The position numbers and the translations under genes are program-made. The notes below the pieces were generated by a model. It was not told where the DNA came from. It worked only from the letters and a program-made list of their open reading frames with translations, and searched no databases. Below are positions 792-62,060 of a DNA stretch of 64,000 bases, piece after piece. The DNA is from Salvelinus alpinus (taxonomy: Eukaryota; Chordata; Actinopteri; Salmoniformes; Salmonidae): the NCBI RefSeq assembly GCF_045679555.1, contig NC_092094.1, forward strand, positions 37,278,430 to 37,342,429, written 5' to 3'. The stretch's first letter is position 1. Every line of letters begins with the position of its first letter.

Positions 792-14175
<13,384 letters not shown>

Positions 14176-22596: not shown

Positions 22597-22669
22597 GTTT
22601 CCGTAGTGTAGTGGTTATCACGTTCGCCTAACACGCGAAAGGTCCCCGGTTCGAGACCGGGCGGAAACA
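22597..22669 (+). tRNA. tRNA-Val (anticodon AAC)
   Basis: A 73-base cloverleaf. The acceptor arms GTTTCCG and CGGAAAC pair fully, with discriminator A. The D-arm region TAGTGTAGTGGTTATCA holds the A-box. The anticodon stem TTCGC/GCGAA closes the loop CTAACAC (anticodon AAC), and the T arm CCCCGGTTCGAGACCGGG holds the B-box. No intron and no encoded CCA, as in eukaryotes. Expected RNA polymerase III transcript; a downstream T run (ATATTTTC) lies within 10 bases. Sister copy at 36811. Confidence 0.97.
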
Positions 22670-22962
22670 TATTTTCATGCCATTAGGTAGTTATCAATAA
22701 AACGTCACAATGCGGTGCATTGGCTATGTGCATTTTTCAAGGTATTGTTAATTAAATACATTTTAACTGTTTGGTTTTAATATCATTACTTCTTGAAGAA
22801 CATAGTCAGAACTACACATTTCCGATTATTCCACATTTAGCTATATCAGAGTTATACAGCAAGCAACTGCATGTTTTTCATGATCAGTAAACATCAATTA
22901 TGTATTTTCAGATACATGAGGGTAGCCTATCCATTTGGCATGTAGCTAGCTTTATCTATCTC

Positions 22963-23875
22963 AATGTGAGCAAGACAAAGGAGCTGATCGTGGACTATAG
23001 GAAAAGGAGGGGCGAACAGGCCCCCTTTAACATCGACAGGACTAAAGTGGAGAGGGTCGACAGTTTCAAGTTTCTTGGTGTCCACATCGCCAACAAACTA
23101 TCATGGTCCAAACACACCAAGACAGTTGTGAAAAGGGCACGACAACACCTTTTCCCCCTCAGGAGACTGAAAAGATTTGGCATGGGTCCCTAGATCCTCA
23201 AAAAGTTATACAGTTGCACCATCAAGAGCATCCTGACCGGTTGCATTACCGCCTGGTATGGCAACTGCTTGGCATCTGACCACAAGGCACTACAGAGGGT
23301 AGTGTGTACGGCCCAGTACATCACTGGGGCTAAGTTTCCTGACATCCATGACCTATATACTAGACGGTGTCAGAGGAAGGTCCGAAAATTTTCTTAAGAC
23401 TCCAGTCACCCTCCAGTCATAGACTGTTCTCTCTGCTACCACACAGCAAGAGGTACCGGAGCACCAAATCTAGGATCAAAAGACTCCTTAACAGCTTCTA
23501 CCCCCAAGCAATAAGACTGCTGAACAACTAAACTAATCAAATGGCCACCCAGACTATTTAGATTGAACCCCCCCTTTTTGTTTTTACACTGCTGCTACTC
23601 TCTGTTTATTATCTTGCATAGTCACTTTACAAATTACCTCGGTTACCCTGTACCCCGGCACATTGACTCGGTACCCCCTGTATGTAGCCTCGTTATTGTT
23701 ATGTACATTTATTGTGTTACCTTTTGATTGATTTGATTTGATTTTAAACTTTAGTTTATATAGTAAATATTTTATTAACTCTATTTCTTGAACTACATTG
23801 TTGGTTAAGGTCTTGCAAGTATATCAAGGTAGTGTTGTATTTGGCGCATGTGACAAATAAAATGTTATTTGATTT
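22963..23875 (+). mobile_element. 5'-truncated LINE (Rex-like), reverse transcriptase C-terminal part
   Basis: The plus strand encodes NVSKTKELIVDYRKRRGEQA and RVDSFKFLGVHIANKLSW, typical of the region after the catalytic core of non-LTR reverse transcriptases, then thumb and C-terminal remains (LTGCITAWYG-like near 23240) broken by stops. It ends in GACAAATAAAATGTTATTTG. The same 3' tail, without coding sequence, lies at 34700-35032. It splits the unit A sequence that is contiguous at 47095-47165 in unit B. Confidence 0.85.
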
Positions 23876-24502
23876 TGGAAAGCACTTGAAATCAGCAAGT
23901 CCTTATCCTGGTAAAGTTGTCAGTCTGACTACTGTCAGCACCACTATAGATGGCAAGCAAATATAGCCATCTTGTTTATCCCCCGAATGTTAGCTTGTTA
24001 ACTAGCCATATTGATGTGATCTGTTATTAGCTAGCCAATTTGACATGGTTCATCAATCAGTGTAGCCTATCAGCAGCAATTGTGATTAAACACTAAAAAG
24101 CAATGTTGAAAAGGGGACCATGTTTGCTCACTTCGCTAGGTTGGGTTGGAGAAAAAAGTGCATTAGGTCTACTTATCACTATGTTTAGCCAACTGTACAA
24201 AGTTTCTGCCAGTAGCTTGCAGGGTAAACATCAGCTAAAAGTAACTTGACTGAGCCCACAAAGGATGGGGAAATTTACCTAAACCACTCATACTTGTCAG
24301 GTATAGTTCACTTTTTTAAATGTTATATCACTAAAATATCCAAATTACGGTGGCCATTATTGAGATATCATGAGGCTACACTTACGTGACCATTTGACAT
24401 TGCGAGTTTAAAAAAAAGATTGGTCCCATCGGTGTAAGCTACCATTTCACTAATGGTTTTGTTGAAAATTGAGTAGATATAATTCTACTAGGCACAAAAA
24501 TG
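23876..24502. other. tRNA-flanking sequence shared with unit B, no gene
   Basis: 23880-24500 matches 47150-47840 (GATGGCAAGCAAATATAGCC, CATATTGATGTGATCTGTTA, GAGCCCACAAAGGATGGGGA) with substitutions and small indels. No open frame or RNA gene seen. Confidence 0.8.
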
Positions 24503-24575
24503 TGTTTCCGCCCGGTTTCGAACCGGGGACCTTTCGCGTGTGAGGCGAACGTGATAACCACTACACTACGGAAAC
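24503..24575 (-). tRNA. tRNA-Val (anticodon CAC)
   Basis: Minus-strand cloverleaf of 73 bases: GTTTCCG/CGGAAAC acceptor pair, the same D arm as the Val-AAC gene, anticodon loop CTCACAC (anticodon CAC) closed by TTCGC/GCGAA, T arm CCCCGGTTCGAAACCGGG, discriminator A. It differs from the Val-AAC gene in only two positions, so the two isoacceptors derive from one another. It faces the Val-AAC gene 1.8 kb away. Sister copy at 47844. Confidence 0.97.
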
Positions 24576-25635: not shown

Positions 25636-25870
25636 TAGTAACTATTACTAAACAATCACAATGCAGTAACTATTACTAAACAATCACAATGCAGTAACTA
25701 TTACTAAACAATCACAATGCAGTAACTATTACTAAACAATCACAATGCAGTAACTATTACTAAACAATCACAATGCAGTAACTATTACTAAACAATCACA
25801 ATGCAGTAACTATTACTAAACAATCACAATGCAGTAACTATTACTAAACAATCACAATGCAGTAACTATT
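25636..25870. repeat. 28-bp tandem repeat, about eight copies
   Basis: The unit GTAACTATTACTAAACAATC+ACAATGCA is repeated from about 25639 to 25869 with almost no variation. The paralogous stretch at 30280-30320 (CAGTCACAATACATTAACTA) has a single unit, so the array grew locally and recently. There are no spacers, so it is not a CRISPR array. Confidence 0.95.
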
Positions 25871-36810: not shown

Positions 36811-36883
36811 GTTTCCGTAGTGTAGTGGTTATCACGTTCGCCTAACACGCGAAAGGTCCCCGGTTCGAGACCGGGCGGAAACA
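36811..36883 (+). tRNA. tRNA-Val (anticodon AAC), unit B copy
   Basis: All 73 bases are identical to the gene at 22597, including the AAC anticodon loop and both internal promoter boxes, while the flanks differ at many positions (compare 22400-22590 with 36650-36805). The downstream T run (ATTTTC) begins at once. Presumably functional and under selection or conversion. Confidence 0.97.
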
Positions 36884-43690: not shown

Positions 43691-44854
43691 GCATTTAGCT
43701 CTATCAAAGTTATACAGCAAGTAACTGCATGTTTTTCATGATCAGTAAACATCAATAATGTATTTGGGTTAATGACGTATAAGGTTTTCAAAAGTGAAAA
43801 CATTTGAAAAGGGAAAACTATTTAATTTGAGATACGTTTAATGTACCCTTGAGTGCACATTCACATTCAGAGCTTGTCGCAAAACACGTTTTTTTATGCT
43901 ATTGTTAAATTGACCTCCTAAAAAGTCATTCGGTGCCACCATGAAATAAAAATATATATAAATTATACTGTATCTTTGTTTTTTCACTTTTCACTGGACC
44001 ACCCCTCATTTTGAATGACTGTCAACTACAACTTCTGTTAAATAAATGAGAAAACCATAACATTTTACAGAAATTAATTTTTCTCTTATAGACTGAGCTT
44101 CTTTCTGGATTTTTTAAACAATAACATATTTGAATAGTTTTTTAAACATTAATAACACTAGTTATACCGAATGATCATTGCCGGTCACACCGCATGAGTA
44201 TTTTGTTATGGTGTAATTTTTTGGGCAGATCTCTCTCTATTTCCCTCTTAATCAAACACACACACATAACAAGTAAACATGGTTTCTTATTCAACAACAA
44301 TGATGCCTTTAATGCTTAGTGAAATATCACAAAGGTGACTCAAATGAGTATCACACAGAAACATTTAATCATGAACATGACAATGAACTTCTAAAAACAG
44401 GATTAAAATGGTGCTTTATGATGATTTTTTCAAACAATGTTAAAAATAGTGTTAAGAATCATTGTAATAAATGTATATTAAAGATACTGAAATACAGTAA
44501 TTCAACATTCAAACATTAAAATATAAAATGCATAAAAAAGTGTTATTCTACATTACAATATTAAGAAAAAGTTAAATGTTTGCGCAATATCTTCTAAAAA
44601 CATACATTGCGTGGACAATAAAGTTTTTATATTTCTAATATTAAAACATAAACAGATGTGATTAAGTTTGTGCAGAACAGTGCAAGATTAAAAATGAGAA
44701 TTAAAAAAGTTTGTGTAAACAATTCATAAGATTCAAACATTAAAGACAAAGAAATTATAACTTTGTAGCAAAGGTTGTAACACTAACTCATTGAAGTTGA
44801 AAATAATAAAACTTGCATTCTTAAAACAGTGTGTTTGATGTTGTTGCACTAGTG

Positions 44855-45870
44855 TGACATGAAAGCAGCCCAGTCTGTGTCAGACAGCCGAGATGCTCTT
44901 GAGCTGAAGGGCTCGGGCTCACTGATCATTGAATTCACATCTCCTTCATATAGTAGAAGGTAATGTCTGGCACAGGGGGCCAGACAAAAACATTCCTCAC
45001 TCCATGCTCCTGCATACAAGTGATTTGCACTTCCTCCCAATCACCTTCAGCACCTGGCCTACAAAGGGGCGGTCTTCATAGCTGACAATGACAAAACTGC
45101 CTAGACTTTCAGCGTTGACTTGGCCAAAGCTGCAGCTTCATCTTGCTGTTCATCAGTGATGGTTTTCTCCTTATGTTGTTCTTCATTGAAGTTCACTTCT
45201 ACAGCACTGAAACAGGTGTTGCTTGGTCTGCTGCAGAAGCAAGACACTTCACTGTGTTTTATTTTCCCTGCCACTGTGGAGGTGACCTCAATCAATCAAT
45301 AAATCAATAAAACGTATTTATAAAGCCCTTTTCATGGTTCCTTTAACTCCAGCGAAGTTGTTTGGCACAGCTTCACCGCAATTAGTGACATCTGTAATCC
45401 AAAATAACTTAATGCTCGATCCACTCTTCTTGAGTAGTTCGAAGAGCTCCTTGGGAGTCTGCACATCCTCCCCCGTTGAATGTGTTTGTCTGCACAACGT
45501 TTCACAGCCCCACCCACGCCATCTGGTGCCCCCTTCTCCTGGAATTTTCAGAAAAGTTCCAGTTGATTTGTTTGAAACTGTGAATATACGGCAGAGTGCT
45601 GAGTAGGTACATGTTCTCCTTGTTTCTGTATTGGCTGACGGGACCATCACTCATCATGTGGAGTGTCATGATTTGTGGATTCTTGTTCTTGACATCTCTT
45701 AGGACAGGCTCCAGGTTAGCCCATACTGCTCTCTTATCATGTCTAAGGGAGACAGATATGGTGGCGTAGGACTGGCTTCCCTCTGATTTGTACACCACAA
45801 TTGTATGGATTGTAGCCTGCTGTCCACTCCCCCCAAAGTAGAACACCTGGATTTCTGTGGCCAATTTACA
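44855..45870 (-). pseudogene. Putative transposase of the 43766-47085 element, broken
   Basis: Minus-strand pieces in order: EIQVFYFGGSGQQATIHTIV and ITLHMMSDGPVSQYRNKENM-like text (45860-45600), KGAPDGVGGAVKRCADKHIQ (about 45530-45470), TPKELFELLKKSGSSIKLFW (about 45450-45390), GSFVIVSYEDRPFVGQVLKV (near 45095-45035), then a WPP...YYMKEM-like end (about 44990-44940). The order SDG..QYRNK / HGKGAPDGVGG / F.V..YE...F.G matches a large, mostly uncharacterised protein family seen in fish, insects and cnidarians, consistent with an RNase-H-like DDE enzyme (inference). Several frame changes and stops break it. No N-terminal third could be found. Confidence 0.72.
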
Positions 45871-45918
45871 ACTGAGTCAGCAGTAATCTGTGTCCTGACG
45901 ATAAAGGCATCTGCAAAT

Positions 45919-46107
45919 TGAGAATGTCAAGAATGTGCAAAGCTGTCATCAAAGCAAAGATTAACACTTTATTGGTTACTACGTGATTCCATATGTGTTA
46001 TTTCATAGTTTTGATATCTTCACTATTATTCTACGATGTAGAAAATAGTAAAAATAAAGAAAAACCCTTGAATGAATAGTTGTGTCCAAACTTTTGACTG
46101 GTACTGT
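45919..46107. mobile_element. Tc1 right-end fragment (CAGTACCAGTCAAA family)
   Basis: AATGTGCAAAGCTGTCATCA ... AACTTTTGACTGGTACTG, followed by TA, equals the right end of the element at 1879-3624. It lies inside the 43766-47085 transposon, between its protein gene and right subterminal region. Confidence 0.85.
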
Positions 46108-47089
46108 ATATATAGATAGGATAGTAGTTATTTACTTAAACATATTTTCAGTATTAGCTGCTTGATGTGCACTACAATACATAAAATAAACTGACAACTC
46201 CTTTATCCTACAAACACTTGTGTTTTTACTTAAAAGGAGATGTGTATATAGATGAATATATAGATTAATAGATAACTTAATACAAAGACAAACATATTGA
46301 CATCATTCAGTGAAACCGTTTAGTCATATGGTGTAACCGGAATTTCTGGTGACTTGAATGATCATTTTGGTTACACATATGATTTTTCTTACATAAACAT
46401 GTATTAGAGGCAACTGCTTTTGCACCCATGTGAACACTTGACTTTGACATCAAGTATGTATCTTGAGTATCGAAATAAAATAGACGATTTTCAGATAATC
46501 CCCCCCCAAAAAAATGTTTTCACCGGTCCTCACCGAATGATCAGATTTTTGGGGTAAACCTGACAGGGAGTGGAAATAACCTTTATTCTTCACCAAAGGG
46601 AAGCTCACAGGCATCTTCATGATGTCACACGAGTACCATCATGTGATTTGATGCAAAATTGTGACTTTATGACCGTCGCACCGAATGATAATCATGAAGG
46701 CTATTTTTCCGGACAAAAGTATTTAAAGTATTTAAAACCTTTCTGCCTAAACTGTCTTACCCATACAGACGTATAGTGCAATAGCCCCTAAAAAAAAGTC
46801 AGAATAATCGTTTGACAGTTGTGTTATGATTTTAGATGTTTTATTAACATTTATATAGATTGTATTTGTCTTCGGACAGTATAAAAAATAAAATAAAAAG
46901 TATAACTTTTTTCTAAACTTTAGAACACCGAAAGTTAGTTTTTTCACATTTAACCATTAACTCTTTTAAGACTCAATAAAAGAGAAAGGGCATAGTTACA
47001 TAACATAACATGTGTATAAATTGGTTGTTGATTTTGGAAAATATTTAAATCAGACACCAAAATATGCATATCACGTTATTGACCCATTT

Positions 47090-47843: not shown

Positions 47844-47916
47844 TGTTTCCGCCCGGTTTCGAACCGGGGACCTTTCGCGTGTGAGGCGAACGTGATAACC
47901 ACTACACTACGGAAAC
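47844..47916 (-). tRNA. tRNA-Val (anticodon CAC), unit B copy
   Basis: All 73 bases are identical to 24503-24575, with loop CTCACAC. Flanks have diverged by substitutions and indels. In unit B it is 11 kb from the Val-AAC gene because two LINEs and a transposon lie between them. Confidence 0.97.
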
Positions 47917-48130
47917 TAGTTATTATAGCTTTGGCCACACACTGTCTTATGCGTCATTGTTGTACATTTACGTGTTTTGTCCTCCAGGATCATGGACCCG
48001 CATTTTTGTATCCCATTCCATATATAATGGTTTTATTTGGAGAATGACAAATATAAATTATTTACATACTAAACGCCTTTTACTTTATGCAAATTTAAAA
48101 AGTCAACTAATCTGAATGGAGATAGGTCAC

Positions 48131-48202
48131 TCCTCGTTAGTATAGTGGTCAGTATCCCCGCCTGTCACGCGGGAGACCGGGGTTCAATTCCCCGACGGGG
48201 AG
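48131..48202 (+). tRNA. tRNA-Asp (anticodon GTC)
   Basis: A 72-base cloverleaf: acceptor arms TCCTCGT/ACGGGGA, discriminator G, A-box TAGTATAGTGGTCAGTA, anticodon stem CCCGC/GCGGG around CTGTCAC (GTC), and T arm CCGGGGTTCAATTCCCCG. A termination T run follows (TTTCTTTTT). Its place in unit A is taken by a non-coding repeat. A decayed copy lies at 49667. Confidence 0.97.
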
Positions 48203-48516
48203 GAATTTCTTTTTCCCTAACATCCTTATCATATTACCCACAAGTTACCCGTTACGCAGTTTGCTAGACCCTTATCACTTTCAATCAATTACCTTTTCTT
48301 CTTAGTACTTCATCAATGAAATCTCAGCATTAAAATGTTATTCCTTTAATGAAAATTATGATATTGAGCATCGCCATTTAGTGCTGGAATAAATTCCCTG
48401 CAACTACAGGATTAGATGTATAGGTTAACTGTTTATTTCTAATACTACTACTGTTTATTTCTACTACTACTACAATTCTGTTTAAACCAATTGTAAAACA
48501 TTGCTTACTAATATAA

Positions 48517-61179: not shown

Positions 61180-62060
61180 AATAGCTATTTAACCACTACT
61201 CCTAAAACTTTCAAAACTGGTTCTAGCTAACCCGATGGCATAGACACACATTGCACACATTTTTTTTTTTTTACATCTCGCACTATTTTAAATTATTTAT
61301 TTACATTTTTTAATTTCAATAGCTCATTGGTCATATGACCTACTGGACTCAAACAAGTTTCATAATGTCCACCTACTACCCTTTTATATTGCACACCCTT
61401 TAGTTTGTCCAGTTTCATCTCACACGTTTTTACATGAATTTTACCAAATTTAAAATTTCAATCGCTCCTTGGTCATGTGACCTAATGACTTCAAACAAGG
61501 TTCAGTATGTCCACTGATTACCCTTCTATATTGCACACCCTTTAGTTTGTCCATTTTCATCTCACAAGACTTTACATAAATTTTTCAAAATGTAAAATTT
61601 CAATAGCTCCTTGGTCATGTGACCTAATGACTTCAATCAAGGTTCAGAATGTCCACTCAGTGGGTCTACATATTGCACATCCTTTAGTTAGTCCATTTTC
61701 ATCTCACACGTTTTTACATTAATTTTTCCAAATGTAAAATTCCAATAGCTCCTTGGTCATGTGACCTGATGACTTCAAACAAGGTTCAGTATGTTCACTG
61801 ACTACCCTTCTATATTGCACACCCTTTAGTTAGTCCATTTTCATCTCACAAGATTTTACATGAATTAAAAAAAAAAAAAAATGAATTTCAATCACTCCTT
61901 GGTCATGTGACCTACTGACTTCAAACATGGTGCAGAATGTACCCTTCTATATTGCACACTCTTGCTTGTGAACTGTAAAATCACACGGTTTAACGTACAT
62001 TTTTCATAGTTTTACATTTCAATAGCTCCTTGGTCATGTCAATTACACACCTAAGAAGCT
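61180..62060. repeat. 142-bp tandem array, about six units
   Basis: AATTTCAATAGCTC-like starts at 61312, 61454, 61596, 61738 and 61884, then at 62016 (spacing 142, 142, 142, 146, 132), with a decayed unit before. Each good unit has CTCCTTGGTCATGTGACC, then TTCAAACAAGGTTCA, ATATTGCACACCCTTTAG and TCCATTTTCATCTCACA. No frame runs through it. Confidence 0.93.

Follow-up and report, generated by a model that had tools for sequence, protein, structure and literature searches.

The window, the 64,000-nucleotide stretch analysed here (C9:37278430-37342429 of a 2.37-Gb genome), holds a 3320-bp transposon at 43766-47085, flanked by two copies of ATTT, and a paralogous copy of the same site without it. 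Its ends (GGGTYAATRACGT) pair as inverted repeats at 11 of 13 positions, and its minus strand carries remnants of a gene of an uncharacterized animal protein family. Feature coordinates, numbered from the first base of the window, are reported in Table 1.

Table 1. Features of the transposon and its empty site
Feature	Position	Strand	Basis
Transposon, broken (non-autonomous) copy	43766-47085		Ends, duplication, empty site
Left ATTT target duplication	43762-43765		Direct reading of sequence; 4 bp is the longest direct repeat in 7/7 elements
Right ATTT target duplication	47086-47089		Direct reading of sequence
Left terminal inverted repeat, GGGTTAATGACGT	43766-43778	+	Pairing with right end at 11/13
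Right terminal inverted repeat, ACGTTATTGACCC (minus strand GGGTCAATAACGT)	47073-47085	-	Pairing with left end
Empty paralogous site, ATGTATTTTCAGATAC	22900-22915		Flank alignment; single ATTT at 22904-22907
Putative transposase pseudogene, catalytic region	45505-45888	-	Peptide blocks; tblastn of P0143, E 2e-30
Putative transposase pseudogene, fragments of the C-terminal part across several frames (SCFC and F.V.YE...F.GQV blocks)	44852-45300	-	Peptide blocks
Other interspersed repeat nested in element, upstream of catalytic region	45961-46113		Also at 1872-2023 and 3478-3629

Element ends and empty site

The two flanks, joined with one ATTT dropped, match 22834-22956 at 115 of 123 columns (93.5%, blastn E 1.5e-48), and the alignment runs unbroken over the junction of the empty site. 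It picks up again at 23871-24010 (87.9% identity), past another insertion, this one within the empty unit. Among 277 other window pieces scored as a control, the best reached 157, against 203 for the flanks. That piece is probably the second half of the empty-site unit, since 23871-24010 is the sole other strong place. Coordinates and flank alignment thus confirm the ends, the 3320-bp length and the 4-bp ATTT duplication claimed in an earlier note on this DNA. The empty site it described is real, but begins at 22900, one base before the 22901 given there.

In the window copy alone, 4 bp followed by GGGT is indistinguishable from 2 bp followed by TGGGT. In two sister elements, L014 and L015, the bases directly outside the GGGT..ACCC ends are unpaired and the direct repeat is 4 bp, so the element starts at GGGT with a 4-bp duplication.

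Sister elements in the same genome

A search of the genome used the 19 leftmost bases of the element as its pattern, allowing ≤2 mismatches. The pattern matched 19 places and its reversed control 22; the count carries no proof alone, and the argument rests on elements with both ends. Sixteen of the 18 further places were taken with 6 kb each; the remaining two, which share one variant and lie 88 bases from each other, were omitted. Six of these 16 loci (L010, L011, L014, L015, L016, and L023) have both ends and an exact 4-bp duplication. At the other 10, strict and looser right-end scans found no both-ended element. The stricter scan gave seven right-end candidates across the 16 loci, five with an exact duplication. 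L010 has an altered right end (GTGT) that was caught in the looser scan only, and blastn of the window element puts it at the identical spot. At L023 the looser scan gave a second right-end candidate with an exact ATAT 63 bases earlier, and the end matching the sister ends was chosen.

None of the seven both-ended elements (the window copy and these six) has a direct repeat longer than 4 bp, and each has one of exactly that length. The duplications are ATTT, ATTT, ATAT, TTAT, ATAA, ATCT, and ATAT. Mispaired left and right flanks carry equal 4-mers in 4 of 42 pairings, as expected from the recurrence of ATTT and ATAT among the duplications. Terminal inverted repeats pair at 9 to 12 of 13 positions, and the element has at least two subfamilies, GGGTYAATGACG.. 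and GGGTCAAAGACG... The earlier note had named different ends or other duplication lengths as evidence against its reading; 4 bp was found in 7/7. Aligned pieces >150 bases from L009 and L010 are 69–78% identical to the window copy, and the element is therefore old. Nested within the L014 element is a 340-aa open frame (L014:1514-2536, minus strand), which we take to resemble a Tc1-like transposase.

Gene remnants

The minus strand of the window copy encodes SDGPVSQYRNK, KGAPDGVGG and C-terminal pieces spread over several frames. The broken gene read there before (SDG..QYRNK, KGAPDGVGG, F.V.YE...F.GQV) is thus borne out. Codons for the three putative catalytic Asp residues lie at 45888-45886, 45648-45646, and 45523-45521, and a Glu codon at 45549-45547. 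A stop lies three codons past the first Asp codon, and the third Asp codon is in a different frame from the second. The first ~178 residues of five long relatives were not found in the window copy by tblastn. The N-terminal part of the family is encoded in L014 (41% identity to P0143 over 75 residues, E 9e-18) and L015 (P0152, E 2e-8). Gene orientation relative to the ends is identical in the window, L014, and L015 elements, all with 4-bp duplications.

Searching the genome in six frames yielded 69 matches out of 117 scored candidates, 19 of the 69 with internal stops. None of the both-ended elements or fetched gene copies was found to hold a complete gene between intact ends. Six close gene copies (L055-L060) were taken with 8 kb each, and three have a recognizable right end: L055 (..GACCC then ATTT), L057 (..GTCTC then ATTT), and L058 (..GACCC then AAGT). 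The long left-end pattern matched 0/6. With a shorter pattern a single weak candidate appeared, at L055 (ATTT + GAGTCA, 4920 bp), and was not counted. Two more distant family genes, L061 and L062, gave 7 and 4 poor end candidates, none GGGT-like, in a weak scan whose search bounds overlapped the genes; L061 has <700 bases upstream of its first match, which weakens the scan further. Regular occurrence of the protein family outside such ends had also been named as contrary evidence; gene parts lie inside three both-ended elements, and L061 and L062 showed no such ends in the weak scan. Three copies of one broken family gene lie ~8.3 kb apart on contig C2 (L043, L044, and L045), apparently by tandem duplication.

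Relatives and domain searches

Searches of 5.8 billion proteins, the last two by profile, found 7/9, 778/2493, and 509/2217 candidates to be relatives. Names among the best 120 of the 778 and the best 120 of the 509 are solely "uncharacterized," "hypothetical" or "unnamed." Hosts named among the matches listed include fishes, bivalves, beetles, moths, butterflies, a psyllid, a leafhopper, a spider, and a hagfish. Relatives reach 537 aa, longer proteins being outside the reach of the search. Across 124 relatives (P0009 numbering), conserved residues are Asp23 (95/103), Asp105 (115/123), Glu138 (112/118), and Asp147 (115/120). The counterpart of Asp147, Asp322, is invariant in 82 sequences, mostly longer relatives.

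Pfam gave nothing convincing on the core in four window pieces, the L014 N-terminus, 96 relatives, or 10 long relatives. No integrase-type domain was found in the 10 long relatives (E 0.01) or the four window pieces (E 1). A C-terminal PHD finger at residues 477–519 of P0129 exceeds the Pfam cut-off. Among 25 of the 35 families weakly matched in the 96-relative scan, DUF7869 aligned to 1/96 relatives (E 0.0022), an E-value equalled by plainly unrelated families in the same scan, and may be a chance match; DUF7869 was not found in the literature searched. A sequence search of solved structures with alignment A3 returned a single chance-level match (E 0.13). No relative was confirmed in viral contigs (3 and 67 pattern stretches), plasmids, or prokaryote genome contigs (196 pattern stretches), searches that needed exact short patterns and that distant relatives could escape. 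In the literature searched, one of four family motif strings occurred, in one unrelated paper.

Predicted fold and catalytic residues

The AlphaFold2 model of the family core (pLDDT 89.2) has an RNase H-like core in which three near-invariant Asp residues (Asp23, Asp105, and Asp147) are sited as in integrases and transposases. VIA-align places retroviral integrases, IstA, Mos1, and TnsB high. Foldseek alone ranks NurA and Argonaute first, not transposases, with no E-value ≤0.001; with a longer model, a terminase nuclease and NurA come on top. Given the three integrase-placed Asp residues in this predicted core and the high VIA-align places of integrases and transposases, the SDG..QYRNK / KGAPDGVGG family most likely consists of DDD transposases. 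The third catalytic acid is most likely Asp rather than Glu, with some uncertainty because Glu138 is conserved as well as the Asp residues. Sequence identity to retroviral integrases, IstA (IS21), Mos1, and TnsB is 7–15%. The family differs from these in its likely third Asp, its N-terminal region, and the lack of a Pfam integrase match. The relation is one of similar working, not membership.

Proposed transposase and mechanism

The ends, the 4-bp duplication, the empty site, and the family gene within the ends are observed directly. Terminal inverted repeats, a duplication of fixed length (7/7), and an empty site are the marks of cut-and-paste transposition, and the predicted core supplies an RNase H-like fold with three acidic residues. 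The window element is a well-delimited, dead transposon, very probably an old one of the cut-and-paste kind, and the family gene very probably encodes its transposase. This would be a DDD enzyme, RNase H-like at its core, with a Cys-rich region toward the N-terminus and a Tudor/SH3-like barrel toward the C-terminus. The earlier proposal of this family as the transposase behind a transposon with 4-bp duplications gains support from three both-ended elements (window, L014, and L015) that hold parts of the gene, and from the integrase-like predicted core.

In the proposed mechanism, the transposase would bind the ~13-bp ends, pair both, and cut the element out. The 3′ ends would then be transferred to the target at points offset by 4 bp between its strands, presumably at AT-rich sites, and gap repair would leave the 4-bp duplication. 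Contact with DNA or chromatin may fall to the Tudor-like barrel. Many animal proteins now labeled "uncharacterized" would be linked both to transposon ends that are defined and to a catalytic core that is predicted, and could be re-annotated as transposase-derived. The Tudor- and PHD-like modules may have a bearing on target choice of such transposons.

Superfamily and alternative explanations

The superfamily, unclear in the earlier note, was narrowed by duplication and ends. Kolobok, piggyBac, and Sola3 make TTAA duplications and are ruled out, as TTAA occurs in 0/7. Tc1/mariner, with its TA duplication, is ruled out by the longest repeat of 4 bp in 7/7. Ginger1/Ginger2 and IS481EU share the 4-bp class of duplication with the element, their duplications being given as 4-bp, 4–5-bp or ~4-bp in the available part of PMC10045372. 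Ginger and IS481EU are unlikely, with no integrase-domain match in 10 long relatives and ends that read GGGT, not TGT.

The element most likely belongs to Sola2 or lies near it. Sola2 fits both duplication and ends, a match by description and not by protein sequence. In the accessible text of PMC3627910, Sola2 has AWWT duplications (ATAT, AAAT, and ATTT) and ends of 12–13 bp or an imperfect 21 bp. The duplications of the seven elements are likewise AT-rich and 4 bp long, and their ends are likewise short and inverted (9–12 of 13 positions pairing). As far as that text describes them, Sola2 elements also share eukaryotic hosts. Those of Dictyostelium differ in carrying Fanzor1 as well (PMC3627910). 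Sola2 has one large transposase, 888 aa in Dictyostelium; relatives here reach 537 aa in a search limited to such lengths. Sola is listed in fish genomes in a table that includes grayling (PMC6505133, in part), and is reported from zebrafish, medaka, and stickleback but not tetraodon (PMC4746887, in part). No Sola2 protein sequence was found in the accessible parts of PMC3627910, PMC4455052, PMC10294476, PMC6505133, PMC4746887, or PMC10045372. Judged by duplications and ends, placement of the element and family in Sola2 itself is somewhat favored. Should the family prove to be the Sola2 of Repbase, what is added is a clean filled/empty pair plus a structural model; otherwise it would be a new superfamily.

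The latter case, a transposase from outside Sola whose own eukaryotic superfamily likewise leaves 4-bp duplications, is unlikely, yet draws on the lack of a name or curated family among the matches listed and of the family motifs in the literature searched. Against it, duplication and ends agree with Sola2 as described in the accessible sources, and a missing name means little with the Repbase Sola2 proteins lying outside the databases compared. Its specific form is a doubtful proposition as well: the KGAPDGVGG family would be the transposase of an undescribed superfamily in fishes, bivalves, insects, a spider, and hagfish, an integrase-fold DDD enzyme making 4-bp duplications, with a C-terminal Tudor-like chromatin-reader module (plus PHD in one relative).

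Considerably less probable is a genuine element in which the family gene came along as a passenger or was captured from the host, with another, unseen transposase having moved the elements. The want of an intact gene between intact ends, the two distant genes without such ends in the weak scan, and the other transposon-like repeat nested in the element would all suit such a history. It is opposed by three both-ended elements of two subfamilies that hold parts of one gene in a shared orientation, by the integrase-like predicted core with three conserved Asp residues, and by hundreds of relatives in unrelated animals, the spread expected of a transposase family. Simple deletion or rearrangement between the tandem units, suggested by two paralogous units that carry other insertions, is next to impossible given the exact 4-bp duplication, the inverted ends, and six other loci at unrelated insertion sites with the same end type and their own 4-bp duplications.

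Neighboring features

The repeat nested in the window element is ~150 bp long and presumably resembles a Tc1-type end piece. In the empty unit, ~0.9 kb is inserted at 22957-23870, ~40 bp right of the empty site, and contains a reading frame that we liken to the terminal part of a reverse transcriptase from a non-LTR retrotransposon. The duplicated units that hold the filled and empty sites contain five tRNA genes (four Val and one Asp) at 22597-24575, 36811-36883, and 47844-48203. Self-comparison of the window also revealed tandem arrays of self-overlapping direct repeats at 25637-25870 and 61269-62039.
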